From Diplolepis rosae (Eukaryota; Arthropoda; Insecta; Hymenoptera; Diplolepididae): DNA of 64,000 nucleotides. This document shows positions 33,184 through 53,368 of the stretch, piece by piece (position 1 is the first letter of the stretch; every line of letters begins with the position of its first letter). Where the stretch lies: positions 434,001-498,000 of the forward strand of contig JAPYXD010000715.1 in NCBI GenBank assembly GCA_030998225.1, given 5' to 3'. The notes beneath the pieces were generated by a model that ran no database searches, was not told the origin of the DNA, and saw nothing but the letters and a program-made list of their open reading frames with translations. The position numbers and the translations under genes were made by a program.

Positions 33184-33945
33184 TGTTACGTCACAAGTAC
33201 GTAAATACTTACTTTGATCGAAGATTCCTCGTTTTAAGTTAGGATAGAATGATCCTCTCTTAGGGATGAGGATAAGTCAATGAAAAGTACACAATGATTA
33301 GTAAAGTAATACAAATTGAATTTATTTAAATTAACACTGATATAAACAAGGTTAAAATTTTACAATGATTCAAACAATGGCACAGGGAATAGGTAAAGAA
33401 TAGAGAGAATTTTCGGTACCTTTGTTGAGTTGTGAATAGTCCCTTTTTTATGAATGATCCTCACAGGTGTGAGGGAGAGAGAAAGATTCTTCCACTGGTG
33501 CGACGAAGACAGCAATAGGTATCCCACTGGTGTGAGGAAGACAGAAACAAATATCCCACTGGTGTGAGGAGGACAAGAATAGTTATTTCACTCTACACTG
33601 ACTCTAAGATCCTTTCAAAGATTGAAAGTACAATCAGAGAATTTACGACACGTTTCTTCGGAAAACTGAACTAAACACGTATCTCACGCTGTGAATCCTT
33701 TTAAGATTTTAGAAATTTCCCGCACTTAATTTTGCTCACAAGACTAGTTTTCCCTTGGCGGCGTGTCCTTTTTATATTATATTTTTTGGTGACGTCACGC
33801 GTTGCGCAGTCTCCCGCTGCGTGTGACGTAGTTATACCTCTCTTTTCAGTAGGTGGTTTTCTCTCTCTTTTAGTAATTTCCCCAGATTTCTCTCTAGACC
33901 TAGCCTATGCCTATAGTACATTCTAATGCGTCGCGGGACGTGACA
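33184..33945 (-). repeat. retroelement LTR, left (3' LTR position)
   Basis: It matches 48825-49586 with about three differences over 762 bp. It starts TGTTACGTCAC and ends GTGACA on the plus strand, and has ACAT on both sides (33180-33183, 33946-33949), the signature of a solo LTR. Inside, a tandem run of about 34-bp units with CCACTGGTGTGAGGA lies at 33468-33580. A palindromic TGACGTCA lies at 33790-33797. Confidence 0.93.
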
Positions 33946-34111
33946 ACATTTATAATATAAAATATTTTTTATATATATTCTATTATAAAATTTATAATAT
34001 AAAATATTTTATATATGTATTATATTATAAAATTTATAATATAAAATATTTTATATTTTTTTTTATTTATGTATATAAATTTAAATTAAATTATTATTTT
34101 ATTATATACAC
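33946..34111. repeat. duplicated flank after the left LTR
   Basis: This TA-rich stretch is the same as 49587-49751, the flank of the right LTR, and stops matching exactly where element-internal sequence begins (about 34112). An ordinary provirus would have a polypurine tract here. The arrangement suggests a solo-LTR allele joined to a full-length allele. Confidence 0.85.
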
Positions 34112-34458
34112 GTTCGGCACAAGTTACACATAAATCTGCTCTTTGCCGCATGTAAAAAATTTGTGTATTGCAAATGGAGCAGTCGAGGCTAGATAGTTTT
34201 AACGTACAATATAAGTCTTTAGTAACTATGTGGTCTATTCGGACGGGTAATGTTACTTCGGTTTCGAAAAAGCTGAGTTCTGTCATCCAACAATCTTCGC
34301 AAAACAAGTTTTTTTTCGAGAACATTCATGTAAAAATTCTCGACCAGGGTTGTGCAGCAGTATTCTGACCATAATTGATTTTCAAAATACGGCTGAACAT
34401 CCTGCTCGCTTGCTCGAACTTCTTCTGCTTCGATTGTTTCGATTTCTTGGGGCAGCAT
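34086..34458 (-). pseudogene. Cys-rich accessory ORF 2, frameshifted
   Basis: Two overlapping minus-strand frames (from 34458 and ending at 34086) together resemble the neighbouring ORF at 34598-34918. Both have a YC pair, an aromatic stretch, then a CxxC (FCEDCW here), and later a CxxC (CSICN) with a further CVTC. The frames change at a T8 run on the plus strand (34309-34316), so a one-base length change can account for the break. The stop lies in the duplicated TA flank, so the natural end may be lost. Likely zinc-binding; function unknown. Confidence 0.5.
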
Positions 34459-34597
34459 TTTTCTGTTGGGGAAATTTACAATATTTAAGGAATTTGAAAT
34501 ATTTGCAAAATTTAAAATTTTTTAGTATTAAGGATTTTATTAAATTTAACAAAATTTTTCATGCGTGATTACATGCGTGGAAGGTAGATACGTATAA

Positions 34598-34918
34598 TCA
34601 TGCAGGGGTATTTTCTACTAGAACTTCGTTTCCTTGACAACCGTAACAATTCATATATATGCATTCCAATTTACAAATGGAATGCCATGATGTAAAAAAT
34701 TCACAGTTATTTTGAGTTTCCTCATCTAATTTCTCGAAACAGAATTGGCAATATCTTTTTGTGGTTTGGTGATTATAATATAAAAACAATGTTGAAGGTT
34801 CTAATTCGAAGCAATAACTCTGTAATAAGTGCGCGTATGCTATCGGATAGTCTTGCGGACATACACCGTCTACTGGTCCAAGATGGTTAACAATAGGTTC
34901 ACTTGGAGTTGGTATCAT
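34598..34918 (-). CDS. Cys-rich accessory ORF 1
   Basis: 106 residues with CQFCF, several single Cys residues, a WHSIC segment and CYGCQG, suggesting two zinc-binding pairs. No known family is recognised. It follows the second envelope gene. The ATG is preceded by TTCTAACAATTTGTAG, which has a branch-point-like and an acceptor-like sequence, so it may be expressed from a spliced message. It is paralogous to the broken ORF at 34086-34458. The interval 34919-35261 has no gene. Confidence 0.6.
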   Translation of the reverse strand: MIPTPSEPIVNHLGPVDGVCPQDYPIAYAHLLQSYCFELEPSTLFLYYNHQTTKRYCQFCFEKLDEETQNNCEFFTSWHSICKLECIYMNCYGCQGNEVLVENTPA

Positions 34919-35261
34919 TTTCTACAAATTGTTAGAATAGATTTATTTTATTAAGGTCTGATAAGGAGAATGAAAAATAACTTTTTGAATATATTTTCTA
35001 ATCATGCAAGGTAAAAGATTTTGCTAAAAGTATTTTACTTTCCGTCAGAAAAACAACTTTTATATTACATTTTGTTTTTTTTTTTTTTTTAGTAAGAAAC
35101 ATTAAAGACGTGGGTACAAAAACTGTCCTTCTGACGGTATAGGTCGTTCATGCATGTGGTTTTGAGAAAGGTAAGGACGGAATGTACCTGTATCTGAAAA
35201 ATTTTGTGAATTGACTTCAAGTCTATTAAAGAAAAGGGTGAAAGATGGAATAAAGGAAAGG

Positions 35262-37043
35262 TCAAAAGTTAAACGTCAAGTCGGTCAGTAAAGGTTTTGT
35301 CACTGAGCTTAAAGGAGTTTTTTGTATAAGTTCTATACGTGTTGGCGTTTTGTTTATTTTTTTAGATATTTTTTGAATTTTCAATAGTAATAATCCTAAA
35401 ATTGTAATCATAAGTAAAGTGATAAAGATTAGTGCTAATGTTAATTTATGTGCACTAGAAATAAAAATTGATGGAATGATTTTTTGAATGTTTGCATACT
35501 TTGTAAGGATAAAGACATGGTTTTCGAAGATTGATAATGGCATGTCTTCTTTTTGCTGAAGAAGAAGTAATACCTTTTTTAGTAAGTGAGGCTCTTGAAT
35601 GGAAATATTATATAAGAATGGTGAAATTATAGCAAGGGAAGTAGTTGATTTGCTGACTGGAATTGAATTATCCATTATATTCAAATGGTTTTGAAGATGG
35701 TAATATGGAGTTGATGAATCTAGATTGCAACCTGATTTTGTTTGCAAAATTCCTATTCCTTGGAGTGTGATTATGGTCTTAGAGTTTTTTCGACATGATA
35801 AGAAAATTTGTCGGGGGAAAATTGTTGAGTATAGCCATCCATGATGAAATTGCAATGGTGTTAGAAAGGGATATTCACTAAAACTGATGAATATTTTACA
35901 CTTGTATGGTTGAGAATTTAGAAACATTGATGTTTCACAAATAGGATTGTTATCGATGTTAGATATAGATCTTGGTGGGTGACAAAATGTTTGGAATCCA
36001 TTTTGATAACATGCATTGAGGAAATTTTCATTTGTTATAAAGTATGATTGGTTATTTGAAGAAATAGCGAGATAAGAATTTTGAGGTTTTATGTAAATAG
36101 AGGAAATTACGTCAGTATTAAAATCGAGATGTATTGGAATTGGATGTGGTTTAAATAATTGAAATTCTTCAGCAGATGGGATTGGTATAGTCATAATAAA
36201 AATCAAGTACTTATCGAATAAGAAGTATTGTATTTTAGAAAATGGAAGGACCATAGAAAAAAGGGATGTTGAAAGGTGTGGGTCTTCTTTGTTGGATTTG
36301 AAGTCTAAGAAGGTATCAGGAAGTAGCATAGGGTGCCATAAATTAGTTGCGGCATGAGTAATAGCTTCTGTAAGTTGGTCAAGGAGTAAAAGAAAAGATT
36401 GAGAAATTTCATGCAGGTCTTTAAGCCAATTTGCTGCTAATATTCGATATAGGTGAATATTTGGATCTTTTTGAGAATTATGCCATTTTTTGTAGGTCAT
36501 AATGTTGTCAAGTTTTGAAGAAAGATTTGTAACTTTTTGGAAAAATGGATTAGGAAGTAGAAATAAATTTTCTTTGGGCCAGTAAAGGGAGGTTTCATTT
36601 CTCATTCTTAATTCTAAAAGTACTTTTTGTATCTGTTGCAAGAATGGATCATTAGTGTTAGAAATATTCGCGATATTACGAGCTTGTCTAGATATAAATG
36701 ATATTTCTTCAAGAAAATAGTTGATGCGTTGTTCTATAAAGTCAAGTTGTGTCTGATGATCGTATAAATTACAATTATTGGCAATATTTGAGAGTATGCA
36801 ATATTCATATAATTTATGTGAGAAATCTATTATTTTGTATTTAAGTACGTCTGGCTGAAAGATATCGATATAAGATATAAAATGATATTTTTCAGAAAAA
36901 AGACGAACTTTTGAAATTGGTTCAAAATAAATCCCTGAAGAATGAGAAAATTGTGAGTCTATGAAGTATTTTTCTGCTTTGGAGAAAAGGAGTGGAATTA
37001 AAATTAAATACACTCTGGATGCTAGTTGATTAAGGAAATTCAT
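35262..37043 (-). CDS. env: second envelope protein, baculovirus F/errantivirus type
   Basis: 593 residues. A hydrophobic signal-like segment is at residues 1-23, followed by GIYFEPISKVRLF near 37, a placement shared with errantivirus Env and baculovirus F proteins. Paired Cys residues lie in the 330-450 region (ACYQNGFQTFC, then CETSMF, YKCKIF, FLSCRK, SGCNLD), as in Baculo_F-type ectodomains. One membrane span lies near residues 532-557 (LTLALIFITLLMITILGLLL), with a cytoplasmic tail. RQAR near 119-122 is a minimal dibasic-type site; a canonical multibasic site is not seen. The protein would mediate membrane fusion. CTTTTCTTTTTCAG ends 22 bases before the ATG, a strong acceptor. It overlaps the CCHC ORF by 14 bases. 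No break is seen. Confidence 0.7.
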   Translation of the reverse strand: MNFLNQLASRVYLILIPLLFSKAEKYFIDSQFSHSSGIYFEPISKVRLFSEKYHFISYIDIFQPDVLKYKIIDFSHKLYEYCILSNIANNCNLYDHQTQLDFIEQRINYFLEEISFISRQARNIANISNTNDPFLQQIQKVLLELRMRNETSLYWPKENLFLLPNPFFQKVTNLSSKLDNIMTYKKWHNSQKDPNIHLYRILAANWLKDLHEISQSFLLLLDQLTEAITHAATNLWHPMLLPDTFLDFKSNKEDPHLSTSLFSMVLPFSKIQYFLFDKYLIFIMTIPIPSAEEFQLFKPHPIPIHLDFNTDVISSIYIKPQNSYLAISSNNQSYFITNENFLNACYQNGFQTFCHPPRSISNIDNNPICETSMFLNSQPYKCKIFISFSEYPFLTPLQFHHGWLYSTIFPRQIFLSCRKNSKTIITLQGIGILQTKSGCNLDSSTPYYHLQNHLNIMDNSIPVSKSTTSLAIISPFLYNISIQEPHLLKKVLLLLQQKEDMPLSIFENHVFILTKYANIQKIIPSIFISSAHKLTLALIFITLLMITILGLLLLKIQKISKKINKTPTRIELIQKTPLSSVTKPLLTDLTFNF

Positions 37044-37260
37044 TAGGCTTCTCGGAAGGCTGAAAAAGAAAAGTAGGATTAATATTGGATAAAATAGGAT
37101 GTTTACATATGGTTGGATTTAGGTCTAGAAGTTTTTTGGAGAAAAGGGGAAAAAAGTCTACTAAATGTTGAGGAGTTTCTTGGTGGAACTGGAGGGGAAA
37201 TTGGGTTGATTTGTCTACCTTAAAAATATTTCGTCTACGGCACTCTTTTGTAGCATGCAT
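37030..37260 (-). CDS. CCHC zinc-knuckle segment
   Basis: The first ATG (37260) lies inside the knuckle. The same frame upstream supplies the start of it, giving CRFCNTQMHATKEC, a perfect C-x2-C-x4-H-x4-C. It overlaps the C-terminal end of the preceding dsRBD ORF in another frame. The knuckle may therefore be the tail of that protein, reached by splicing, by ribosomal frameshifting, or in an ancestor before a frame change. The rest (about 65 residues) is unremarkable. RNA binding is likely. Confidence 0.5.
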   Translation of the reverse strand: MHATKECRRRNIFKVDKSTQFPLQFHQETPQHLVDFFPLFSKKLLDLNPTICKHPILSNINPTFLFQPSEKPNEFP

Positions 37261-37298
37261 TTGAGTGTTACAAAATCTACAGGAATTTTCCCAAGGTA

Positions 37299-37685
37299 TT
37301 AATTTTGGTCTTGGATCGGTTTGAATACTTTGATTTTTGGTTTTTTGCCTTTTTTATCATCATTATTATAAAATTTTTCGTCGCAGAGATCATATGATCT
37401 TATTAGTAGTAATAATAATTTTAAAGCTGCTCTTTTTTCTGCTAATTCACTAGTAGGGCCGGCTTGTATAACGAAATGTTCATTTATATTAATTTGTGCG
37501 AGAAAAAATGAGTTTGTTTTCGAATTCGGATCAGGATAGACTGTATATTGCGGTAACGGCAGTCCATATTTTATCGTGAAGTTTCTTAAAATTTCTACAT
37601 GATTTAAAAATCCCATGGAGTCTGTTCTGTATTTCTTTTTTGGGTAACTTGGTACGTGTGTAGGCTCGTCGTAGTAATGCTCCAT
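37299..37685 (-). CDS. dsRNA-binding domain protein (single domain)
   Basis: 128 residues. Residues about 28-97 fit a double-stranded RNA binding domain: a first helix (NHVEILRNFTIKYG), LPQYTVY, strands with FLAQINI, then a second helix with SELAEKRAALKLLLLL in place of the usual A-K-x-x-A-A signature. The tail is Lys-rich. The ORF stands 37 bases after the two-domain ORF with GATTCAG, acceptor-like, shortly before its ATG. Such proteins in viruses often sequester dsRNA from Dicer. That role here is inference. Confidence 0.7.
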   Translation of the reverse strand: MEHYYDEPTHVPSYPKKKYRTDSMGFLNHVEILRNFTIKYGLPLPQYTVYPDPNSKTNSFFLAQININEHFVIQAGPTSELAEKRAALKLLLLLIRSYDLCDEKFYNNDDKKGKKPKIKVFKPIQDQN

Positions 37686-37722
37686 TGCAGTTGATTTCCT
37701 GAATCGGTATGGAATGTTTATA

Positions 37723-38460
37723 TTAGAATTTATTGTACTGGTTGGGAGGTCTATATCCGCATTTAAAACATTTTTTAAAGCTTTTCGTAGAGAAAGATGA
37801 TGCAGTATGATTATTATTTGTTTTCATTTTATATGAATTTGTATTTTTATCACGATTGTTATTTGAAGTAATAGGTTTTGTTATTTGGCTACTCGTTGAA
37901 GGTTTTGGATCGTTCATAGATGATTCCTGAATTGTTACATGCAAATGTTCTAGTGAGTTTATCAAACGTAGTTCACATTTCTCGTCTTTATGCGAAAGAG
38001 AATTAATAACTTTTATGGCAGCAAAATCCTTAGCTGTTTTTATTGAGTTTGCTATTCCTATTTGTTTAATGTTATTAATGAAACAAATTGCTATGTATGT
38101 TGAGTCTTTTGATGAGGTTTTTATTCGTAATACTGTATATTTTGGATACTCAAATTTATTTTCAGTGCAAATTTCGTTTAATTTTTTGCAATTTTTACTA
38201 ATAGAGTTTGGTTGGACGTTTTGATTTGTTTCCTTTGATTCATTAATTAAGGCATTATATAAATTTTGTGCTACCTTTTGCTTTACATTTTCTTTATCTT
38301 TGCCACTATTCATTATTATATAATTTTTATATTGTAAATTAACGTGAAATAGACATTCATTATTATTGGTTTGTTCAATGAGTATCTCATAAATCAGGGG
38401 TGGATCTCCTCTTTGTTGAATAATTTTGTTTAGTAAGGTTGTAAAAGGAACATGCGACAT
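37723..38460 (-). CDS. dsRNA-binding protein with two domains
   Basis: 245 residues. The first dsRBD is at residues about 5-72 (PFTTLLNKIIQQRG, PLIYEI, LFHVNLQY, ending QKVAQNLYNALIN). The second is at about 91-156 (KKLNEICTENKFEYPKYTV, AICFINN, then KTAKDFAAIKVINSL). A Ser/Asn-rich linker follows, with a C-terminal CFKC that is half a zinc knuckle. The ATG is ten bases after the stop of the first envelope ORF, with CATCTTCAG just before it, acceptor-like. Suppression of RNA interference is the obvious guess for an insect virus, but packaging or other RNA roles are possible. The frame is intact. Confidence 0.78.
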   Translation of the reverse strand: MSHVPFTTLLNKIIQQRGDPPLIYEILIEQTNNNECLFHVNLQYKNYIIMNSGKDKENVKQKVAQNLYNALINESKETNQNVQPNSISKNCKKLNEICTENKFEYPKYTVLRIKTSSKDSTYIAICFINNIKQIGIANSIKTAKDFAAIKVINSLSHKDEKCELRLINSLEHLHVTIQESSMNDPKPSTSSQITKPITSNNNRDKNTNSYKMKTNNNHTASSFSTKSFKKCFKCGYRPPNQYNKF

Positions 38461-38470
38461 TCTGAAGATG

Positions 38471-40501
38471 TTAGATTTGGATAGAGTAGTGGGTTCTACT
38501 AAGTTCTTCTTTTAATTCAGAGTGAGGATAAAGAGTTGTGTTTGTATTATTGTGATCTTTACCTGAAGTAGTGTTTGCGTAATACGATGGACTTTTAGGT
38601 GCCTCTTTCGAGCTTTGTGGTGCTGAAGCTGTTAGCAGTTCTTGATGACTCTCAGCAGGAGGTCCAGAAGGTCGATGGGTACCTAAGTGTAATAAGAGGT
38701 TAGTGACCGAATCCCAGAAGGCGCCTAGTAGATAGAGAGACCATCCAAATAATCTGTGTAGCGCATATCCATGAATAATGGTATCAGCTATCAATTTAAT
38801 CCCTCTAATTATTATTATTAATCCAATTAGGCCTGCACTAGTAGTTCCAAAACTTGTAAAAATTGTCCAAAATCTACCCCATGCGGATTCAGCAATTTTA
38901 TCAATTACATCTTCATTAAATAAATTCGTTAATGATATTCCTTGATTAATAGTTGGATGTCCTGTTATTTCTCTAGCTAAAGAATTTAGAATCATTGGTT
39001 TTTCTGCTGGAAACATAATATGATCTCGCAGTTTATCAAGATCAGATTGAGAATAAATGCCACTTGTTGCTAAGGATGAAGGATTTGTGTATTTCCAGGT
39101 TGCTTTTGTGAGAGGTTTAACTATAGTTGGTGCTATGGATTCGACAGGATTTGGAAGTAATTTGTACCAGGTTTCTCCAAAAAGGTACATTGGTGGAAGG
39201 AAAGAATTGCAATTTGTTTGGATACCTGATTTTGTTAATATATGAGTTCGTGGAGAAAGGAAAAAGGATTGATTTCCTCTAAATATTGGTAGTTGTAGAT
39301 AACATTCTTCAGTTTTGCGATATTTTACTTCAACCGGTATACATTTTACGATATGTACTACTTCTCCTGCAATTACTGACATATATCCTGGGCCTTTCAT
39401 TAAATGATATGCAAATTCGTCTGGTGATTGGGTTGCTAAGGTTAATGTATTTCTAAAAACTTGCTGTTCAAGTATGCATCGTTGAGTAAGAACATCGTGA
39501 TAAAGTCTATTTACTTCAGTGCGTATGTGTCGTTCTACATATATAAATTTAGAATTGACGTATGTGAAAATGTCCATATTTTGAACTTCTAAATGTTTAT
39601 TTTCTAAAAATGAATTCCCAGGTCTGGTTTCAAAAATTAATAATTTTGGATGTTCGGTTTGTATTAAAACGTAACTGCAAACTGGTTTTCTTGTTTTTTC
39701 AGCTAGTACGAAAGTTATATCCTCAGTCGTTAAAGAATAAAAGGTTTCAGAATTGTCTGTCGTGTTGTCATAGGTCTTATTTGCTGGTCCTTCATAAATA
39801 ATTTCATATTTGTTAAAATTACATACGTCATTAGGTAATGTATCCCAGAATGTTTGTCCATATTCTACGTCAGTACAGAATGTGTCTGAAAGTGTGCATA
39901 TTATTCCAGATCCTAATTGAATTTTATTTGAATTTAAATGAATAGTCGCGTAATGTTCTTGTAAAGTTTTTTTGAATATTGCTTGGACTACGACATTATT
40001 CCATGTTCCGTATGGGTCAGAAAATTGTGTACCAGTACAGTCTCCATTAGGTGTTACAGAACCTGCTAAAGTAACGCTATGAAATGAAGTTTCATTTACT
40101 TTTAACTTTGATATCTGAAGAGAAGGGGTTACTAAAAATGTTCCTATTGTGTGCATTTGATTACATTGATCTCGTGTAACATCATGTATATATTCACTGT
40201 GGCCATTTGCTACTATGGAACTGTGAGAATGCATACCACAATGAGAGATGGCGCGTCGAATTTCTATTTTGCATTGTATTACTTTTGTATTTGAAAATCC
40301 AGTTAATTGTAAAAGTTGTATATAAGTTCTTTCAACATGTACTTGAGATCGAGGTAGATCACATTCTCCTACCTCTAGTAAAGATAATGTCGTAATATTT
40401 GATTGATTTGAACCGCAATCGAATCCTATGATGGCGTAGACTGTTGTTATATAGTTGAAGTTGCAAGTGAGCAGTGCCAAAAGGAAGCCTCGTAATCCCA
40501 T
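38471..40501 (-). CDS. first envelope protein, chuvirus-like glycoprotein
   Basis: From ATG 40501 the protein has 676 residues. I chose this start because CTCTTTTTTCCAG, a strong splice acceptor, ends two bases before it and a signal peptide follows (MGLRGFLLALL..., through TTVYA). The frame is open for another 90 codons upstream, to 40771. The ectodomain begins GFDCGS, then ITTLSLLEVGECDL, TYIQLLQL and a CGMHSHSS motif, features I associate with glycoproteins of Chuviridae/Jingchuvirales, which have class III fusion-protein character. Several N-glycosylation sites are present. Near the end lie two hydrophobic segments (SAGLIGLIIIIRGIKLI and LFGWSLYLLGAFW) and a Ser/Pro-rich tail. Chuviral glycoproteins are known to have been captured by arthropod LTR elements. 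Confidence 0.72.
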   Translation of the reverse strand: MGLRGFLLALLTCNFNYITTVYAIIGFDCGSNQSNITTLSLLEVGECDLPRSQVHVERTYIQLLQLTGFSNTKVIQCKIEIRRAISHCGMHSHSSIVANGHSEYIHDVTRDQCNQMHTIGTFLVTPSLQISKLKVNETSFHSVTLAGSVTPNGDCTGTQFSDPYGTWNNVVVQAIFKKTLQEHYATIHLNSNKIQLGSGIICTLSDTFCTDVEYGQTFWDTLPNDVCNFNKYEIIYEGPANKTYDNTTDNSETFYSLTTEDITFVLAEKTRKPVCSYVLIQTEHPKLLIFETRPGNSFLENKHLEVQNMDIFTYVNSKFIYVERHIRTEVNRLYHDVLTQRCILEQQVFRNTLTLATQSPDEFAYHLMKGPGYMSVIAGEVVHIVKCIPVEVKYRKTEECYLQLPIFRGNQSFFLSPRTHILTKSGIQTNCNSFLPPMYLFGETWYKLLPNPVESIAPTIVKPLTKATWKYTNPSSLATSGIYSQSDLDKLRDHIMFPAEKPMILNSLAREITGHPTINQGISLTNLFNEDVIDKIAESAWGRFWTIFTSFGTTSAGLIGLIIIIRGIKLIADTIIHGYALHRLFGWSLYLLGAFWDSVTNLLLHLGTHRPSGPPAESHQELLTASAPQSSKEAPKSPSYYANTTSGKDHNNTNTTLYPHSELKEELSRTHYSIQI

Positions 40502-40620
40502 CTCTGGAAAAAAGAGGTTCCAATTAGCAGCTTGCTTTGTAATATAAGAATAGGAAAATGTTTTATCATTAAATATGTATATTTTTGAAGTTATTGATTT
40601 ACTTTTTGTATTTTGCGTTC

Positions 40621-40902
40621 CTAGTTCATTATATCCAACATGTCGGCTATGACAATGTGATTTGATAGCCGTAAACTGAGAATTAAATTTTTGTATGCGT
40701 CCGGTCCTCTTGTTTTGATTGTTGAAAAAATGTCTTTTATTATTTCTGGATTGTTTAGATTTCTGTTCCATGTGGGGATATTGCAGTCGTCTTTCTTAAA
40801 AATTCCAGTTTGAATTAAGTATGGCCAGAGAGCTACCATGTCGATAAAACAGGGAACTATTTCAATGAGATCATCTATGCGTTTGCGATGAATTTGTTCC
40901 AT
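40621..40902 (-). CDS. small CARD-like protein
   Basis: 93 residues, all helical in appearance and spanning one death-fold domain. RKRIDDLIEIVPCFIDMVAL fits helices 1-2, LIQTGIFKKDD fits the turn before helix 3, and the signature IKTRGPDAYKNLILSLRLS, followed by HIVIADML, matches helices 4-6 of caspase recruitment domains (R-G-x-x-A-x-x-x-x-x-x-x-L). There is no other domain, so it could act as a decoy or adaptor. Its start region follows two acceptor-like sites (AATTTTCAG, ATTATTCCAG). It overlaps the upstream open part of the glycoprotein frame in another frame. The assignment is by pattern only. 40903-41152 is AT-rich non-coding sequence. Confidence 0.65.
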   Translation of the reverse strand: MEQIHRKRIDDLIEIVPCFIDMVALWPYLIQTGIFKKDDCNIPTWNRNLNNPEIIKDIFSTIKTRGPDAYKNLILSLRLSNHIVIADMLDIMN

Positions 40903-41152
40903 TATATCTGGAATAATGTGTTATGTCTGAAAATTCATTTTTATTTTGTTTTATATATATTTTTTATTTTATATATAAAACATATATTTTCATAACAAAA
41001 AAAAAATTTTATTTTTTATACTTTTACTATTTATCGACAAAATAAAATTTCTATATCTTATTTAAGTTGTATATGTATATATATATAAATATATATATAT
41101 ATATTTTTTTTTATAATTAAGGTACAGATATTTTGTTTCTATTTTTATTTAT

Positions 41153-41590
41153 TTACTTTTGTACTTGCACATGTGAGAGTTTTAGTCTATTAATGTGGAC
41201 AACAGTAGGTTTGCCTTTATAGCTTATTTTGACATTCCCTTTTCCTAACACTTCCAATATTTCATAAGGCCCTGTATAATGGCTGTCAAGTTTTTTAATT
41301 TTTCCTCCTTTTAATAAAAACACGTAATCTCCAATTTTTACTTCTAAAGGACTTATTTTTTTGTCATAATATAATTTCGATTTTTCTTTTGCTGAAATAA
41401 GATTTTCTCTTGCTTGTGTTCGCATTTCATGTAGTTGTGTTACGAAATTAATTAAATAATCGTCATATGTTTGTAATTTTTCTTGTTGTGATAAAGGTTC
41501 ACTGGAAGGTTCACGAGCTAGTTTACCAAAAACCAATTCATAGGGTGTGCATTTTGTGCCTTCATGTACACTAGTATTATATGAGAACAT
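41153..41590 (-). pseudogene. pol: integrase C-terminal part with GPY/F module
   Basis: The frame gives the end of the integrase core (MFSYNTSVHEGTKCTPYELVF), a helical segment, and the C-terminal module HYTGPYEILEVLGKGNVKI, a GPY/F motif of Ty3/gypsy integrases. Its natural upstream part continues through a region holding the catalytic Glu (SNGSLERSHH). It is split from the first integrase frame by a one-base length difference in an A4 run (plus strand 41699-41702). Confidence 0.85.
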
Positions 41591-41606
41591 TGCTAGTTCA
41601 AGCCAA

Positions 41607-42287
41607 TCATCCCATTCTGAATTTTTTGCAACAAATTGTTTGAGATATTCTCCTAAAACATGATGTGAACGTTCTAATGACCCGTTTGATTGAGGGTGAA
41701 AATGCTGTGGTACGAAATTGTTTAATTCTAAAACGTTTTGCCAATCTTTTTAATAAATTACTTAAAAAATCTCTGCCTTGGTCAGTAAGTACTCCTTTCG
41801 GTGATCCAAATATGCAAATAAATTTTTTCACGAAAGCATCTGCTATCGTACTAGCTTGGTGATTAGGAAGAGGTATTGCTAAAGAATATTTGGTAAAATT
41901 GTCTTGTATCGTTAGAATATATAAGTTACCAGATTTTGTTTCAGGTAGTGGACCAACAATGTCCATTGATATTTTTTCAAAAGCAGTAGTGGGTGTGTCA
42001 GTGATTACCATAGGGTTTTTTGTTTTGACTCTGATTAATTTTTTCAGTTGACATTGTAAACAGCCTTGAATATATTTTTGAATGTCTACTTTCATATTTT
42101 CCCAAAAAAAATTTTGGCGAATTCGGCTATAAGTTTTTGTAACGCCTTTATGGCCTCCTAATGCTGAGGAGTGAGCTTCTTCAATTAAATGAGTTCGTTG
42201 TTCCTTTGTTGGATATTGCGTTATTCCATTGCAAACTATAATTTTTGTAGTTGAATTTGAAAAAATTGAATCGAAAATTGATTTCAC
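41607..42287 (-). pseudogene. pol: integrase N-terminal and core part
   Basis: It holds the HHCC zinc finger (EEAHSSALGGHKGVTKTY, then CLQCQLKK), the core start SMDIVGPLPE with the first catalytic Asp, and LTDQGRDF with the second. The third catalytic residue is in the next frame. The frame then runs out in nonsense (SIKRVIRTF...). The integrase would insert viral cDNA into the host genome. As read, the protein is interrupted. 42288-42502 continues the same region in other frames. Confidence 0.88.
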
Positions 42288-42502
42288 TTCTTCCCAAGGT
42301 ATATGATTAATTCTGGAAGTTTTTGATATACTAATAGATCGTAATTTAAATTTTTGAGATAATTCATGTAATGAATGAATTGATAATTTTATATTATTTA
42401 AAGTTTCAGATAAATTATCTTTAGTTTCTTCTTCAATTGGAAGTGCAAAATGGTAGTAGTTTCCTTTTTTAATCTCTTTTGCTATCCCCTTTTGTAAATT
42501 TT

Positions 42503-43659
42503 TTAAATTTTTGGTAAAGTTTCACGTTTTTCTAAAATTTTTGATCCGTTGTCGCGAGGAGTTCCATTTGTTGTAACAAAATATGCATAATTATCTTTTC
42601 GCATAGTTAATTGATCGCGACATTCAACTAAATTTTTCTTTGTTATAATTTTTTCTGTTTGAGAGTTTATAGGAGGAGGTTCTGGGGGTGGACGATTATA
42701 ATTATCATGATCTTTATCGATTTTTTCACAATTTATTTGAGATCTTCGGTTTAATCTCAAATTTTCTTCAAAATAAGGCTCTTCAAATTCTTCTTCCAAT
42801 TTTTCTTCTTGGTTTTCTTCAAACTTCTCATCAAAATTTTCCTCAAGATTGTCTTCAAAATTTTCTTCAAAATTCTGTTCGGAAATTCTTTTCAAAATCG
42901 TCTTCAAGATCATCTTCAAAATTCTCTTCCCAATTTTCTTCATAATTTTCTCCATCATTTCCTTCGTGTGAGGTTTCAATGTCGTTGATTTCATCTTCTG
43001 AGGTTGAAAAATAATTCTCACTTTCTTCACTTTCAAATTCATTAATATTTTTTGGCTTCTTGGCATTCTTCTTCTTTTTATTTTTGGCTTGAGTTTGTTT
43101 CAAATAATCTAAATAATCAGGATCAGAGTCGGAATCTGATTCTACTTTTGTTCGGCTTCCCTTTTGCACATTTATTTCTGGTAATTCGTTTTCAAACATT
43201 TGTTTTCTTGGCCTACCTCTCTTTCTTTTTGTTTGAGAGGGAATATTTTTCAAATTTGTAAGTAGATTTTTTCTTGGCCTACCTCGTGGTTTTTTCATAA
43301 GAGGTTTAGAAGAAAAATTTTCGTCTAATTTTTCTTGAGTTTCGTTTCGATTCAAATTTTTTTGTTTTTTTTGATCTATTCGGGTTTGAGCTCTAGGAGT
43401 AATAGTTTTACATGATAAATTTTCGTATTTTTTGGAAAAACACTGGACTTAATAAAAATATTGTCATAAAACTAAGTCTTGAAGCCATATTTTTGAATAA
43501 ATTTGTGTAGTTTAAAATATTCTTACCAATCTCACTAAATAATTCTTCACTAAGAAATTCCTGGAAATCTTCTGGGATTTTTGAGTCGATATTTAATATT
43601 TGGGCTTCCGAAATTTCGCTAAAACGATCTACGTCGTCTGGTACGATTTCTGGATTCAA
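42503..43659 (-). pseudogene. pol: pol linker with AT-hooks and acidic repeats
   Basis: Three overlapping frames (43659-43408, 43355-42867, 43066-42503) appear to be pieces of one reading between RNase H and integrase. The middle piece has two AT-hook motifs, KKPRGRPRKN near residue 21 and KRKRGRPRKQ near 44. AT-hooks bind the minor groove of AT-rich DNA. A strongly acidic stretch with repeated EENFED units then continues into the third frame, followed by a Pro-rich PPPEPPPINS. The frame changes lie near 43430 and 42895. I know of no standard gypsy domain like this between RNase H and integrase. Confidence 0.6.
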
Positions 43660-43679
43660 GTTTCTTCGTTTTGAAGGTC

Positions 43680-44378
43680 TTACCTCATTTTTAGAGTTTT
43701 CTTGTTTTTTTCTTTGTAAAAGTTTTCTTTGAAAACATTTTTTCTTGGGAAGTCATAAAAAGTATCATTGGCGTCAACTTGTAAATATCTTGATTTCTCT
43801 TTGTTATCATCAATAGGGTTTCTTGAGAGAGCGTCTGCATTTACATTCATTTTTCCTGCTTTGTAAATTACATCAAAATCATATTCTGCGAGTTTCAGTC
43901 TCCAACGTGAAACTCGTGAACAAGGGTCTTTAGAATTTTGAAACCAAACTAGAGGTTTGTGATCAGTCACTAAAGTAAATTTTCTCCCATACAAATAAGG
44001 ACGAAAATGAGTTACACAAAATATTATAGCAAGAGCTTCTTTCTCATATGTATCATATTTTTTCTCAGTATCACTTAGACTACGTGAAGCATATGCTATT
44101 GGCTTATCTTTACCTATTTTACCTTGTGATAAAATACCTCCTATTGCAAATCCTGAGGCATCTGTTGTGAGTATAAAAGGTTGAGAAAAATCAGGTCGTT
44201 GTAAAAGTGGTTCTTCACATAATTTTGCTTTTAAAATTTCGAAAGCTGCTTGTTGTTTTTCTGTCCAATTAAAAGGTGTATCTTTTTTCAGAAGTTGATT
44301 TAAAGGACTTGCAATTTTTGAAAATCCATCAATAAATCGTCTATAATATCCTGCTAAGCCTAAAAATTGTTTTAACAT
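43680..44378 (-). pseudogene. pol: RNase H domain
   Basis: It opens with [20 protein letters not shown], the connection to RT, then [34 protein letters not shown] (catalytic Asp), [20 protein letters not shown] (catalytic Glu), and [11 protein letters not shown]. It ends [10 protein letters not shown], typical of Ty3/gypsy RNase H. It is separated from RT by a one-base length difference in a T4 run (plus strand 44370-44373). It would degrade RNA in the RNA-DNA hybrid. Confidence 0.9.
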
Positions 44379-45090
44379 TTTTCTGTGTTTTTGGGACTGG
44401 AAAGTTTTTTACAGCTATTATCTTTTTTGGATCTGGACGTACTCCATTTTTATCAATTATATGACCTAAATATCCTACTTCAGGTCGTAAAAATTCGCAT
44501 TTGTCTGGTTGTAAATGAAGATTTGCTTTTCTAAGTCTTTCTGCTAAATTGTTAAATTTAATTTCATGCTCTTCTAGAGTATTTGCATATATAACTATGT
44601 CATCGAGATATACAAAAAGTTCCGTTCCTATTAATCCAGTTAATGTTAAATCCATTAATCTTTGAAATGTGGCAGGTGCAGTTTTTAAACCGAAAGGCAT
44701 TCTATCGAATTCGTAATGACCGTGAGGTGTAGAAAACGCGGTTTTATGCGAGTCTTTTGGATCCATTTTTATATGGTGAAAACCGGTAGCTAAATCAAAC
44801 ACTGAAAAATATTTTGCTGATCCTAGAGAATCAAGTATATCGTTTATATTAGGTAAAGGATACGAATCGCCAATTGTTTTTTCATTTAATTTACGAAAAT
44901 CAAGAACCATTCTCCATTTTATTTTTCCTTGAGAATCAGGTTTTTTAGGAACTATCCACACTGGAGTGTTATATGGTGATTGTGAGGGCTTGATTATTTT
45001 ATTTTTTAATAATTCATCGACTTGTCTTGTAATAATTTTCCTTGTGAACTGGGGGAGATCTATTTTGTCTTGAAAAAATTGGAGCGTCAT
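44341..45090 (-). pseudogene. pol: reverse transcriptase domain
   Basis: It contains SPYNTPVWIVPKK, WRMVLDFRKLNEKT, YFSVFDLATGFHHIKM (first catalytic Asp), TAFSTPHGHYEFDRMPFGLK, ATFQRLM, and the active-site box ELFVYLDDIVIYA, all canonical for errantivirus and 17.6-type gypsy RTs. It is displaced from the protease frame by a one-base difference in a T4 run (45036-45039) and from RNase H at 44370-44373. Catalytic residues are intact. Confidence 0.93.
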
Positions 45091-45931
45091 CTACAGTAGG
45101 AATTGAATGTTGTAATACATTAGTAGCTTCAAGTGGTTTTTCTGAGATTTGGAATCTATTTGCATTGCTCTTAATTAATTTTTCTACGTGTTCATATTCA
45201 TCTGGATTTAAATGGTCTAATTGAAGAAGTTTTTTAATACATTCTACTCTGTCTTCGTCTGTTACATTATAAAATTTGCATGAGTTAATTAGAGAATTGT
45301 CAGTTTTTAAAAAGTTATTTAATATTTTACTTGATAAATCTTCGTTATTTGTTTGTTTGAAATTAATTAAATTTTCAATTTGTTTATAGCATTCTTGTTC
45401 TTCAAAGTCTTCTAAATTAACTAATGGGACGGATAATGTAATTGGGATTTCATTTGTGTTTGCAAATTTTAAATAAGCTTTTCCTCTGTGATTTTTTACA
45501 ACTGCGTCACCTACGTAGACGCCATCTTGGATATGTAATCGAGGTACATACCCTTCACTCTTTTCTGTATTTTTTATATTAACATAAAATGTTGTAACTG
45601 TTCGAGCTGGAATAGTAAATGTATTGGTAGATTTAAAAGGGTAACAGTGGTTCTCAATTTCTAAGCATTTTGAAGTATAGTTTATATTCACTCTATTATC
45701 TTGAAAAAATTCTGATCCCAATACTCCATCTTCTTCTACTGGGACTTCATTCGGAATAATGTTAAATATTGTTGGGTAACCAAAAATGTTTATTTTTACT
45801 TGTCCTAATGTGTAAAGTGGTAAATCATTAATTCCTGTAAGTTTTAATACGTTTTGGCTATTTATTGGTACTTCAGGGTTGAGAACCTTTTGTTTAATTA
45901 AATTTCGAGCAGCACCAGTATCAATCATCAT
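45014..45931 (-). pseudogene. pol: protease domain and start of pol
   Basis: The aspartic protease motif MMIDTGAARNLI is at the start of the ATG-initiated frame, with EEDGVLGSEFF about 70 residues later. The tail (QHSIPTVDDAPIF) is the usual lead-in to RT. The frame is open upstream of its ATG through the gag stop and is -1 relative to gag, consistent with -1 frameshifting to make Gag-Pol. It ends in a stop just after the frame change near 45036. Confidence 0.87.
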
Positions 45932-46050
45932 GTGTGTTGGGTTTTTTAAACCTTCCGTTGATATTATAATTGATGGAATTGAAGTGGACTTTGAAATATT
46001 TATTGTTGTTGTTGTATGATCGTTAGAATTGGATGCCAGTGGTTCTCGAT

Positions 46051-47916
46051 TTATGCTTTCCTCAGTGCACCCGTGCTGGGGAGAGCTTTGGAGTTTTCCT
46101 GATGAGCTGTTTGTGATTGGCTATTTGGTCGTATCTTGCAGTCTCGTACTAAATGACCGGGTTTTTTACAATAATTGCAAACTACTTCAGTATAATTTGA
46201 ATTTTGTTGATTATTATTATTTTGTAAAAACCTATATTCATATGGTTTATTTCGATTTTGAGACTGTCCGCAGTTAAAGTTTTGATACTGTCCTGGATTC
46301 CATTGTCTATTATTATTATTAACATTATTGTTATTATTGTAAAAATTTCTAGGAAAATTGTTATTATTGTTGTGTCTTTGTTGTAAAACATTATTATTAT
46401 TGTTTTTATAATTATTATTTCTATTTTGCAAATTATTATTGTTATTGTTATTAAAATTATGATTTTTATTTCTTAAAAAATTGTTATTCGAAAAATTATT
46501 GTAATTGTTTCTTGCAAAATTATTATTATTATTACTTCTTTGACCATTGAAATTACTATATCCTTGTTGGTTAGGACGCAACAAAAAATTTTTTTGTTTA
46601 TTATTAAAAACTGCATCTTGAGCTTTACTTAAATGAAAACATTTTTCAGTTGTGTGACCTGGTTTTTTACAAATTAAACAAATAGTTTTGTTTTCAAGTG
46701 CTACGTTAAATCGGGTTGTTTTGTTATTTTTATTATTAGATGATTCGTCACTTTTTGAATAATCCATATTTTTATTTCTTCGTAGTGCGGAATTTGCAGC
46801 TAATCTTCGTTCTATATCAATACTGTCGCTAATAACTTCTTTAAAAGTATCCTTTTCTTCAACACGAATTTCTAACTCAGGACGCAAACCGCGTATAAAA
46901 CATTGAATTACGTCTTTTTCAAGGTTTACTTTAAAATTATTATCTACCTGACCATTATTATTGAGCCTGTGAGCATCTTCGATTTTGTCGGCAATTTCTT
47001 TTATCCTAGCAGCATAGGAAAGTACATTTTCTCTTTCCCACATAAATGTATTACCTAATTCTCCCTGTAACTGGTACACGCTTTTCGCAGGGGCATATAC
47101 TCTTTTCAATTTTTCTATCAATTCTTCTATTGTTGTATAAGTAGAACCAAAAATGCATTTTCTGGCTTCTCCAGTTAATTTACCTCTTAATAGCCTTGCG
47201 AGGTTTTCTTGAGCTGCAGGTGTCGGTAGCATTGCCTTTGCCTCCATGCAACCCTCAATAAAATGTGACAATGGGAGGTTACTTCCGTCAAACAATGGGA
47301 CCACCTCTAGCGCGTCGCGTAAGGATACCTGCTGGCTGTTGGGTATGACCACCGCCATCTCTTCGTTATTTACTCTTACGGGATTATCCTGATTTATGGC
47401 TTCTGTGTCGCTTTTGTCGTCGTCGCTATCGTTGTTACTAATTATAGATTCGCGTGCCAATGAGGTTTCCAATCTTTCTTTCAAAGTTTTATTATCTACT
47501 GTTATTACTGTTGAGCTTAGCAAATTGAATTCGTCAAAATAAGATAATTCATTCGTTAGAGTTTGATCTTGATTACTGGATCCTGTTACAATGCTTAAAT
47601 CTGGACAGAAACTTGAATGAAACCCGCTAGTTTTTTCTGAATTTTCACGTGATATATTTTGATTATTAATTAGAGTCTTGTCTAAACTTGAATCATCTAA
47701 CTTAAGAGTGTTATCTAATTCTTGTTCTGTAGGGATTGGATCAGGGATATTTTGGCATTTATTATCAGTTGAATATTCTCTATTTCTAATTGGTTTTATT
47801 TTTAAATTACCCTTTTGATTCAAATCTACTATTTTTGCAAGCTGACTATCGTGTTTAGCTTGACTACGTGTTATAACTTTCGGGGTAGATTCTAAAGGGA
47901 TATTTGGTTTTGACAT
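46051..47916 (-). CDS. gag: Gag polyprotein
   Basis: 621 residues, intact. The N-terminal 190 residues are polar and acidic. A capsid-like helical region spans about 200-370 (PLFDGSNLPLSHFIEG, ENLARLLRGKLTGEAR, IQCFIRGLRPELEIRV). Two CCHC knuckles lie at about 413-426 (CLICKKPGHTTEKC) and about 579-592 (CNYCKKPGHLVRDC). Between them lies a remarkable Asn-rich stretch of about 130 residues with poly-N runs. Gag would form the particle and bind the genomic RNA. The stop is followed at once by the pol frame in -1. Confidence 0.92.
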   Translation of the reverse strand: MSKPNIPLESTPKVITRSQAKHDSQLAKIVDLNQKGNLKIKPIRNREYSTDNKCQNIPDPIPTEQELDNTLKLDDSSLDKTLINNQNISRENSEKTSGFHSSFCPDLSIVTGSSNQDQTLTNELSYFDEFNLLSSTVITVDNKTLKERLETSLARESIISNNDSDDDKSDTEAINQDNPVRVNNEEMAVVIPNSQQVSLRDALEVVPLFDGSNLPLSHFIEGCMEAKAMLPTPAAQENLARLLRGKLTGEARKCIFGSTYTTIEELIEKLKRVYAPAKSVYQLQGELGNTFMWERENVLSYAARIKEIADKIEDAHRLNNNGQVDNNFKVNLEKDVIQCFIRGLRPELEIRVEEKDTFKEVISDSIDIERRLAANSALRRNKNMDYSKSDESSNNKNNKTTRFNVALENKTICLICKKPGHTTEKCFHLSKAQDAVFNNKQKNFLLRPNQQGYSNFNGQRSNNNNNFARNNYNNFSNNNFLRNKNHNFNNNNNNNLQNRNNNYKNNNNNVLQQRHNNNNNFPRNFYNNNNNVNNNNRQWNPGQYQNFNCGQSQNRNKPYEYRFLQNNNNQQNSNYTEVVCNYCKKPGHLVRDCKIRPNSQSQTAHQENSKALPSTGALRKA

Positions 47917-48792
47917 TGAGTCATTATAAATTTACAATATTTTGTATTGAGCGTTGATTGTTTATTGTTTTTTTTAAATTTGTTTATAACAATAAAAAAA
48001 AACTATATATAAAATTTGTTTTTTAAGAAAAATAAAATGAGATTAGTAAAATTTATTTGTAATTTGTTTATTTATTTTTAATAACAATATAATTTGAAAT
48101 GAAATTTGTATTTCGTCATTTGAAAATAAAATAATGATATAAAAATATAATTATTTCAAATATTCAAATTAAATAAATAATCGCTCAATTGTTTGTAAAT
48201 TTATAATTTTTAATAATAAATTTCTTAAAATAATAAAATATTTTTCTTTACCAACTGCATGTGCCCTTTATGTAAAATTAAAATAATTTATTTTATTTAT
48301 TTATAAATTGTTTATAACAATTAAACAAATTTGTTTATAATAATGATCATTCGAAATATTCATAAATTATTTTTATTATATTGGAAAAGTTAACTTAAGT
48401 GCAAATCTTTGGACAAAAATTTTTTTGCAAATAAAAATATTCTATTTTTTATGTTTGTTTTAACTTAAATCAAAACTTGGTTAACAAATTAGAATATCTT
48501 TTTAAATAAGATAAGTTACTTAATCACTTAGGTTAGCCTCAAGGTCAGATCCCTGCGTGATTTTTCAAACTTATTTTATTTTTAAACAATTTATATAAAT
48601 TATAAAATTTCAAAGAAATGATCTGATTATTAAATCATTAAGGTTAGCCTCAAGGTCAAATCCCTTTGTGATCTAACAAATCTATTTTATTGAAATTTTA
48701 AGATTTAAAGTTGAAATAATATTTCATAATCATTTATTTATTTATTTATTTATTATTAAGAACCAATGTGTTCAATTTCAATTGACTTGTGT
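47917..48792 (-). other. 5' leader of the retroelement
   Basis: AT-rich untranslated leader between primer site and gag. Two copies of a 39-40 base motif (TTAGGTTAGCCTCAAGGTCA plus flanks) lie at 48523-48561 and 48633-48672, about 110 bp apart. Each is bracketed by ATCA and TGAT so that it can fold. These could be packaging or protein-binding sites. Nothing else is recognised. Confidence 0.6.
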
Positions 48793-48810
48793 TTCCCGGC
48801 CGATGCACCA
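48793..48810 (-). promoter_or_regulatory. primer binding site, tRNA-Gly
   Basis: On the plus strand TTCCCGGCCGATGCACCA equals the 3' end of tRNA-Gly (GCC) with CCA, so the minus (element) strand is its complement over 18 bases. It lies 14 bases inside the LTR edge, further than the usual 0-5. Confidence 0.88.
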
Positions 48811-48847
48811 GAAAAAAGGAAGTATGTTACGTCACAAGTACGTAAAT

Positions 48848-48853
48848 ACTTAC
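48848..48853 (-). promoter_or_regulatory. candidate major splice donor in U5
   Basis: ACTTAC on the plus strand is GTAAGT on the element strand, preceded by AAA. It sits near the U5 end, upstream of gag, where a donor could serve the downstream acceptors before the envelope and accessory ORFs. Consensus match only. Confidence 0.35.
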
Positions 48854-49406
48854 TTTGATCGAAGATTCCTCGTTTTAAGTTAGGATCGAATGATCCTCTC
48901 TTAGGGATGAGGATAAGTCAATGAAAAGTACACAATGATTAGTAAAGTAATACAAATTGAATTTATTTAAATTAACACTGATATAAACAAGGTTAAAATT
49001 TTACAATGATTCAAACAATGGCACAGGGAATAGGTAAAGAATAGAGAGAATTTTCGGTACCTTTGTTGAGTTGTGAATAGTCCCTTTTTTATGAATGATC
49101 CTCACAGGTGTGAGGGAGAGAGAAAGATTCTTCCACTGGTGCGACGAAGACAGCAATAGGTATCCCACTGGTGTGAGGAAGACAGAAACAAATATCCCAC
49201 TGGTGTGAGGAGGACAAGAATAGTTATTTCACTCTACACTGACTCTAAGATCCTTTCAAAGATTGAAAGTACAATCAGAGAATTTACGACACGTTTCTTC
49301 GGAAAACTGAACTAAACACGTATCTCACGCTGTGAATCCTTTTAAGATTTTAGAAATTTCCCGCACTTAATTTTGCTCACAAGACTAGTTTTCCCTTGGC
49401 GGCGTG

Positions 49407-49438
49407 GCCTTTTTATAGTATATTTTTTGGTGACGTCA
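49407..49438 (-). promoter_or_regulatory. LTR promoter: CRE-like palindrome and TATA box
   Basis: On the element strand a TGACGTCA palindrome (49431-49438) stands about 12 bases upstream of CTATAAAAAGG (49407-49418). The arrangement fits a TATA promoter with an adjacent CREB/ATF-type site. The left LTR keeps both in similar form. Confidence 0.5.
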
Positions 49439-49586
49439 CGCGTTGCGCAGTCTCCCGCTGCGTGTGACGTAGTTATACCTCTCTTTTCAGTAGGTGGTTT
49501 TCTCTCTCTTTTAGTAATTTCCCCAGATTTCTCTCTAGACCTAGCCTATGCCTATAGTACATTCTAATGCGTCGCGGGACGTGACA

Positions 49587-50118
49587 ACATTTATAATATA
49601 AAATATTTTTTATATATATTCTATTATAAAATTTATAATATAAAATATTTTATATATGTATTATATTATAAAATTTATAATATAAAATATTTTATATTTT
49701 TTTTTATTTATGTATATAAATTTAAATTAAATTATTATTTTATTATATATAAAATTTAAATTTTTATTTATAAATTTAAATTATATATTTTAAATATATA
49801 TCCGATCTTAGGAAAAGACTAGTAAAGAGCGAAGTAGAAGGAAAAGAGGTAAAAAGCTATTTTGTAAAATCTTGTCGACAAGCTAGGGTTGAATTGACGA
49901 GGACTACCTGACCCATCACGAATACAGCAGACTCACCAACACAAGTTTCGGCCTTACCCCTACAACTTAATTCTTATCCGTGAGATTTTGGCGATTTTCG
50001 AAAGTGTCGATCCTCGTGTTCGGGTTTGGATCTTTACCTACCCCTGGCGTCTTTCCCCGCAAGGTTTGGACCCTTTAATCGCCCTCGATGTCTCCTCTAT
50101 ACCTATCTTCACTCAACG
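49587..50118. repeat. end of the right foldback arm
   Basis: After ACAT and TA-rich text, 49795-49905 is the inverted copy of 16182-16290, and 49897-50118 is the inverted copy of 13345-13567. The site where the P-like element entered the left arm is uninterrupted here. Confidence 0.85.
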
Positions 50119-53235: not shown

Positions 53236-53368
53236 AAAGTGGATAAAGTCTGTTAAGGTTTCATTGACTTTTAGGAAATAGTAGAAGAAATTCGAATAAC
53301 TTTTAGAAAACCAGGTGGAAGAAAAAAAGTCGCGTATTTACTATTATAAAAGTATTTTAAACAGGGGC
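53236..53368 (-). repeat. TIR-family fragment left of the LINE
   Basis: It is the reverse complement of the right part of the TIR family at about 59515-59640 (CGCGTATTTACTATTATAAA and neighbouring text). Together with 54952-55074 it shows the LINE inserted into a minus-strand copy of that family, with the sequence between missing. Confidence 0.65.

Follow-up and report, generated by a model that had tools for sequence, protein, structure and literature searches.

A Ty3/gypsy-type endogenous retrovirus of about 17.6 kb in Diplolepis rosae with two envelope-type glycoproteins and several predicted double-stranded RNA-binding proteins

The DNA analyzed here is a 64,000-nucleotide stretch of the Diplolepis rosae genome (contig JAPYXD010000715.1, positions 434,001 to 498,000), referred to below as the window. 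It contains an element that reads on the minus strand and lies between two long terminal repeats (LTRs) at 33184-33945 and 48825-49586. This element is a damaged copy of an endogenous retrovirus (ERV) of the Ty3/gypsy type, approximately 17.6 kb in length, that has multiplied recently. The gene order from 5’ to 3’ is LTR, primer-binding site, gag, pol (protease, reverse transcriptase (RT), RNase H, and integrase), a CARD-like open reading frame (ORF), a chuvirus-type glycoprotein, a protein with two double-stranded RNA-binding domains (dsRBDs), a dsRBD-zinc-knuckle protein, an F-type envelope, two Cys-rich ORFs, a last dsRBD-knuckle ORF, a polypurine tract, and LTR. The last dsRBD-knuckle ORF is known from other copies and is gone from the window copy. 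The ORF list and the Pfam matches, which were judged against the curated cut-off of each family, confirm with some corrections the set of minus-strand ORFs that a preliminary description of this DNA had placed behind gag-pol.

Copies were searched for in the genome that contains the window (757.7 Mb, 428 contigs), and all copy counts are lower bounds. The best-scoring 30 of 59 glycoprotein loci, including that of the window, were cut out for comparison and are referred to as the 30 loci.

Both LTRs are 762 bp in length and differ from each other by three mismatches. The 5’ LTR is at 48825-49586, and the left LTR, at 33184-33945, has ACAT on both sides. The primer-binding site (48793-48810) is located 14 bases inside the LTR and has identical letters in a second copy (C203, L058). 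It is presumably complementary to the 3’ end of tRNA-Gly.

The gag ORF (46051-47916; minus strand, as are all genes of the element) encodes 621 amino acids. Two zinc knuckles can be read in its sequence, and the only Pfam match is to a zinc knuckle, under the cut-off. The protease region of pol (45014-46120) was assigned by position and has no Pfam match. The RT (44341-45090) matches RVT_1 at 1.1e-36, and its nearest solved structure is the Ty3 RT (6e-52). The RNase H (43680-44408) matches RT_RNaseH at 1e-39. The integrase (41153-42521) matches Integrase_H2C2 at 9.8e-22 and rve at 5.7e-14, and is split between two frames in the window copy. In 21 of the 30 loci, that of the window not among them, the integrase end is a single open frame of at least 360 codons. 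Between the RNase H and integrase is a long acidic linker (42503-43752), identified by ORF reading and spread over several frames. It is rich in Glu and in Lys/Arg and contains two motifs that we take to be AT-hook-like. A targeting role of the linker is conceivable, with the element lying in AT-rich sequence.

The first gene behind pol is the CARD-like ORF (40621-40902), which is 93 amino acids in length and for which the CARD label is unproven. At least 150 copies were scored at 94-100% (1176 first-look candidates), and 143 of these 150 are free of stops.

The chuvirus-type (Monjiviricetes) fusion glycoprotein (38471-40501) is 676 amino acids in length. It matches PF24664, Monjiviricetes_fusion, at 8.4e-246 and over the full length of the family (positions 6-649 of 653). 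The open frame extends up to 40795. The start of the protein is very probably at 40501, not at 40771 as previously given, because most aligned relatives begin near there; with this start, the CARD-like ORF need not overlap the glycoprotein. A single strongly hydrophobic stretch is present near the C-terminal end. At least 59 copies were scored at 98-100% (2628 first-look candidates), and 46 of the 59 have no internal stop.

The glycoprotein has 318 relatives. An organism is given for 16 of the best 120, and of these, 15 come from hymenopteran genomes (ants, a sawfly, and parasitoid wasps) and one is a hymenopteran chu-related virus. A tree was constructed from 116 of 121 sequences, five having been dropped by length. 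The window copy clusters only with P0037 and P0038 (62-68% identity, support of 100). Relatives of the glycoprotein, the F-type protein, or the two-dsRBD protein were not found in the viral contigs searched.

The two-dsRBD protein (37723-38460) has 245 amino acids and matches Pfam dsrm (PF00035) at 1.6e-10 (41.9 bits, cut-off 23). Its model follows the order helix-strand-strand-strand-helix at low confidence (predicted local distance difference test (pLDDT) of 39) and was left out of the fold search. All of its 36 relatives are from ENA. In P0035 the end of the glycoprotein and a dsRBD share one frame, and in P0012 the dsRBDs are joined with F.

The next gene, at 37030-37685, is composed of a one-dsRBD ORF (37299-37685, dsrm 2.5e-4) and a zinc knuckle behind it (37030-37353). 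Its frame is broken in the window copy; in 22 of the 30 loci, this third dsRBD and the knuckle form one open frame. The zinc-knuckle segment of the preliminary description is thus present, but it belongs to the one-dsRBD gene and is not a separate unit. The last ORF, read in other copies, contains a dsRBD (6.5e-7, 30.3 bits, above the cut-off of 23) and a zinc knuckle (4.9e-5, under the family cut-off). With this ORF included, the element has a total of four dsRBDs in three genes. The second, third, and fourth dsRBDs are alike beyond shuffled sequences (z of 6.1-7.8). What we take to be the full KKxAK motif is present only in the last of the four. Weak single-sequence matches of the dsRBDs are to Loquacious, R2D2, Dicer-like, and TRBP. 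A host RNA interference (RNAi) gene as the origin of the dsRBDs was considered and dropped, as the single-sequence matches were weak and there were none with a profile.

The baculovirus-F-type envelope (35262-37043) is 593 amino acids in length and has a hydrophobic stretch near its C-terminus. It matches Baculo_F at 8.2e-23 over residues 269-555. One RxxR site can be read in the sequence, with no evident hydrophobic stretch behind it. The F-type and chuvirus-type proteins are different proteins, in agreement with the two different envelopes reported before. At least 74 copies of F were scored at 96-100% (2666 first-look candidates), and 59 of the 74 have no internal stop. Two relatives of F are deletion copies in which the glycoprotein and F are fused. 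A third, P0158, has 73% identity and an open frame of 439 amino acids.

The two Cys-rich ORFs follow. Cys-rich ORF 1 (34598-34918) matches no Pfam family and is 106 amino acids in length in the window copy, compared with 136 in three other copies. The region of Cys-rich ORF 2 (34086-34521) has its end cut off and is in two frames in the window copy. It has a weak zinc-ribbon match (E=0.027), under the cut-off.

The arrangement of these genes is fixed. The integrase end, spacer, CARD-like ORF, glycoprotein, both dsRBD genes, and F start are in the same order in 30 of the 30 loci. Nucleotide identity across the loci is mostly about 99%, with the spacer at 88-100% and the integrase end at 96.6% in one locus. 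Part of the dsRBD region is deleted in one locus (L035), and in another (L010) the spacer is longer by approximately 0.3 kb. At 36 of the 59 glycoprotein places, a listed F is located 0.8-1.5 kb downstream on the same strand; in none of the 59 was F found within 10 kb in another arrangement. In each of the 10 copies sampled, pieces of gag and RT lie where they would be expected, with identities of at least 99% (99.4-99.9% for the gag piece). Further copies with the same gene order in the same genome, which the preliminary description had proposed as a check, thus exist, and no copy without the accessory ORFs is present among the ten LTR pairs listed (40 of 1858 LTR candidates scored).

Near-identical LTRs were scored at 40 places, out of the 1858 candidates. 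Nine of the ten listed pairs are 17,375-17,960 bp apart and one is 29,887 bp apart. This 29.9-kb pair (C95:4234352-4264238) may belong to a copy that received a further insertion afterwards. Seven of eight copies tested are flanked by target duplications of 4-5 bp; copy C373 has none. A G-rich polypurine tract abuts the 3’ LTR in 3 of 3 copies. The two LTRs of a pair have no differences over 762 bp in eight of nine pairs and two differences in the remaining pair, which points to a recent burst. Seventeen of 20 LTRs (18 from the nine pairs and the two of the window) are letter-identical. The pairs are the best matches to the window LTR, so that the sample leans to young copies, and no age is given.

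The window copy itself has suffered damage. A 158-bp segment of the outer right flank (49587-49744) is repeated at 33946-34103, just inside the left LTR. By comparison with other copies, this segment replaces approximately 1.3 kb of the 3’ end. The missing sequence comprises the end of Cys-rich ORF 2, the last dsRBD-knuckle ORF, and the polypurine tract, and is present in 3 of 3 other copies examined. Among the four 3’ ends read, the abnormal end is peculiar to the window copy. Fusion of a solo-LTR allele with a full-length one, either in the animal itself or during assembly, would account for it; the left LTR is solo-LTR-like, with flank repeated inside, as from allele recombination or a misjoined assembly. 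In addition, pol is broken across several frames and Cys-rich ORF 1 is short by approximately 80 bp. A divergent patch is present at the end of the protease region (45014-45194), where the window copy matches eight of nine other copies at only about 90% and the ninth at 95.8% over a longer match; the remainder is about 99% alike.

Selection was assessed on 40 of the more diverged CARD-like matches, taken from the 150, and pieces of the other genes were taken from 20 of those 40. Pieces matched in 18 of 20 for the glycoprotein (first 900 nucleotides), 14 of 20 for the two-dsRBD gene, and 14 of 20 for F, and non-matching ones were left out. Changes common to two or more copies have mostly passed through replicating elements, and private changes mostly arose after insertion. 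The shared changes of the glycoprotein are 14 nonsynonymous and 22 synonymous, with an N/S value (nonsynonymous against synonymous) of 0.18 (p=4.8e-7); the values are 1.53 and 3.89 in the other frames and 0.71 for private changes. The two-dsRBD gene has 12 nonsynonymous and 12 synonymous shared changes and an N/S of 0.24 (p=8e-4), with 1.72 and 1.64 in the other frames and 0.66 for private changes. F has nine and 13, respectively, and an N/S of 0.19 (p=1.3e-4), with 0.66 and 1.63 in the other frames and 0.41 for private changes. As the inherited changes in these three genes are, for their number, mostly silent, the genes were selected while the element replicated.

The CARD-like ORF has 17 nonsynonymous and 15 synonymous shared changes, with an N/S of 0.28 (other frames 1.43 and 0.89, private 0.57); third positions account for 20 of these 32 changes. 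This sample (68 rows, the 40 diverged copies and 28 of the 30 near loci) was ranked by the score of the CARD-like protein itself and is biased. A first count was made on the 30 loci and gave shared nonsynonymous/synonymous changes of 0/7 for the glycoprotein, 0/2 for the CARD-like ORF, 3/3 for the two-dsRBD gene, 1/2 for the third dsRBD, and 2/0 for the integrase end. It was set aside for the glycoprotein because the loci had been ranked by glycoprotein score, and the later counts replace it. The complex gypsy-type ERV first proposed from this DNA therefore holds as to a large accessory region that is fixed in the element, and as to selection on the glycoprotein, dsRBD, and F genes.

The element can be compared with Metaviridae and, within the insects, with errantiviruses. 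The pol order of protease, RT, RNase H, and integrase agrees with Metaviridae (by Pfam and position, the protease having no Pfam match), as does an RT nearest to that of Ty3. The LTRs, primer site, polypurine tract, and a target duplication within 4-6 bp also agree; the window copy provides the LTRs and primer site and the other copies provide the rest. An F-type envelope gene is shared with errantiviruses. The envelope is not the sole third ORF directly behind pol, since the CARD-like, glycoprotein, and dsRBD genes intervene before F.

Insect ERVs of the errantivirus type (gypsy, ZAM, and their kin) have a single envelope as the third ORF (PMC12992720). As here, their pol is of the Ty3/gypsy type and is followed by an F-type envelope gene; the present element differs in its second, chuvirus-type envelope before F, in its dsRBD and other ORFs, and in its length. 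The F described here is so divergent from errantivirus envelopes that Pfam alone gives the link. Anakin elements of mosquitoes are BEL/Pao elements with a chuvirus glycoprotein (PMC7642597). Here too, an LTR element has a chuvirus-type glycoprotein behind pol and young, identical LTRs. Anakin has a BEL/Pao pol, whereas the present RT is nearest to Ty3 and no BEL-type family is among the Pfam matches listed. Neither a second envelope nor dsRBD genes are mentioned in the accessible description of Anakin.

Type III fusion glycoproteins are also on record in gypsy elements (PMC13172572, citing Chary and Hayashi 2025), so a class-III-type envelope in a gypsy-type element is not new. The accessible text mentions no two-envelope or dsRBD-bearing element. 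In Hymenoptera, chuvirus-type endogenous viral elements (EVEs) occur near Gypsy fragments with “no clear evidence” of capture by Gypsy (PMC10084718), and 224 ant EVEs fall in ant-only clades (PMC6540820). These EVEs have the same glycoprotein family in many copies, often near Gypsy fragments; in D. rosae, unlike the EVEs as described in PMC10084718, the glycoprotein gene is a constant component of a Ty3/gypsy element. Lastly, the 340R protein of an insect iridovirus is a dsRBD suppressor of RNAi (PMC4231766). It is likewise an insect-virus dsRBD protein, but it belongs to a DNA virus and its activity was measured, whereas that of the present proteins is predicted. No description of two envelopes and dsRBD genes in one LTR element was found in a literature search by title and start of abstract, which most subscription papers lay outside. 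Chuvirus-type envelopes in retroelements are already known; no report of their combination with an F-type envelope and dsRBD genes was found in that search.

Vertebrates are known to have complex retroviruses that carry immune-antagonist genes, and the best reading of the present element is as an insect counterpart of these viruses. The explanation that we consider probable is that of a Ty3/gypsy ERV of approximately 17.6 kb whose two unrelated envelope-type glycoproteins and several predicted dsRNA-binding proteins likely provide entry and protection from RNA silencing. A wider claim is put forward tentatively, as somewhat short of an even chance. This is that the element represents an insect lineage of complex retroviruses, in which a Ty3/gypsy virus with an F-type envelope acquired a class-III-type fusogen from a chuvirus-like RNA virus and assembled a set of dsRBD/zinc-knuckle and CARD-like proteins directed at RNA silencing and host signalling. 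This set would be a functional counterpart of the accessory genes of the vertebrate viruses.

The chuvirus-type glycoprotein would likely mediate cell entry. The F-type protein may serve another entry step, another cell type or tissue, or assembly. For the dsRBD proteins, dsRNA is the likely ligand; by analogy with 340R, they would bind the dsRNA of the element itself and shield it from Dicer. Interference with silencing is suggested by the weak matches to Loquacious, R2D2, Dicer-like, and TRBP together with the 340R precedent. The targets of the CARD-like and Cys-rich proteins would be host signalling or gene expression. With a gypsy-type element that is young, present in many copies, and maintained by selection with two unrelated envelope genes and four dsRBDs, it becomes testable whether such elements defend themselves with their own proteins against insect RNAi or the PIWI-interacting RNA pathway. 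If the reading is true, the large excess of chuvirus-type glycoproteins over other chuvirus genes in the genomes of ants and wasps could be due to elements of this kind. The element also offers a vehicle for the abundance of these glycoproteins in Hymenoptera, a question left open by the authors of PMC10084718.

Several results weigh against this interpretation. Internal stops are present in 13 of 59 copies of the glycoprotein, 7 of 150 copies of the CARD-like ORF, and 15 of 74 copies of F. The Baculo_F match is limited to the later half of F, and three relatives of F were found. The one-dsRBD ORF scores 22 bits, just under the dsrm cut-off of 23. The last dsRBD ORF is fully open in one of three copies read (L039) and split in two in the remaining copies; it is at the expected offset in two of six older copies (98.6% and 79%, over part of the ORF) and not in the other four. 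The first and second dsRBDs have no likeness beyond shuffles (z of 0). The matches of the dsRBDs to RNAi cofactors have E values of 0.001-0.06, and a profile of the two-dsRBD family has no match to solved structures. The CARD label of the preliminary description is unproven. The Pfam CARD match (E=0.018) is at 15.5 bits, under the cut-off of 23.9, and a search with the five-helix single-sequence model (pLDDT of 66, weak evidence either way) gave nothing significant; the best fold match was the MAVS CARD at E=3.7. Three of the ten fold matches listed are Apaf-1/caspase-9 CARD complexes, and all are non-significant.

Two alternatives concern function within the same element. In the first, which we regard as rather unlikely, the dsRBD-zinc-knuckle proteins are nucleocapsid-like cofactors in RNA packaging, export, or dimerization and not in silencing escape. 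Zinc knuckles are typical of nucleocapsids, and knuckles behind dsRBDs fit RNA packaging equally. In 22 of 30 loci, a dsRBD is continuous with a knuckle in a single open frame, and both domains occur in the last ORF. The observed selection fits either role and does not separate the two. Packaging by these proteins is made less likely by gag, which has knuckles of its own (read in the sequence; Pfam under the cut-off), and by the use of a dsRBD protein against RNAi by insect viruses (PMC4231766).

In the second, which is doubtful to a similar degree, only the chuvirus-type glycoprotein is a working envelope and F is an older envelope in another role, such as receptor interference or assembly. 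The partial Baculo_F match, the RxxR site that no evident hydrophobic stretch follows, and the small number of relatives are in its favor. The inherited changes of F are nonetheless as constrained as those of the glycoprotein (0.19), P0158 keeps a long open frame at 73% identity, and most scored F copies (59 of 74) are stop-free.

It is very improbable that the accessory genes are passengers that were acquired once and copied along without use. The copies are young, so open frames alone prove little, and private changes in the glycoprotein and dsRBD gene are near neutral (N/S of 0.66-0.71); the inherited changes, however, are strongly constrained, and in the coding frame only. The last alternative, a 3’ half formed by chance assembly of unrelated insertions next to a gypsy element, which the preliminary description had also raised, would suit the abnormal 3’ end of the window copy (flank inside the left LTR, no polypurine tract) but is ruled out for practical purposes by the pol-accessory join and order common to 30 of 30 loci, by LTR pairs of one element length, and by the polypurine tract and target duplications of other copies, the abnormal end being private among the four 3’ ends read.

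Other repeats are present elsewhere in the window. Positions 18472-31580 contain two long tandem arrays of a 94-bp unit in opposite orientation, with a head-to-head junction near 24660. On the plus strand, ORFs at 2229-5777 resemble a Copia-type retrotransposon by eye. Positions 52015-54699 contain a 309-bp inverted repeat (94% complementary) and, behind it, two ORFs, the second of which has zinc knuckles and is like ORF1 of a long interspersed nuclear element.

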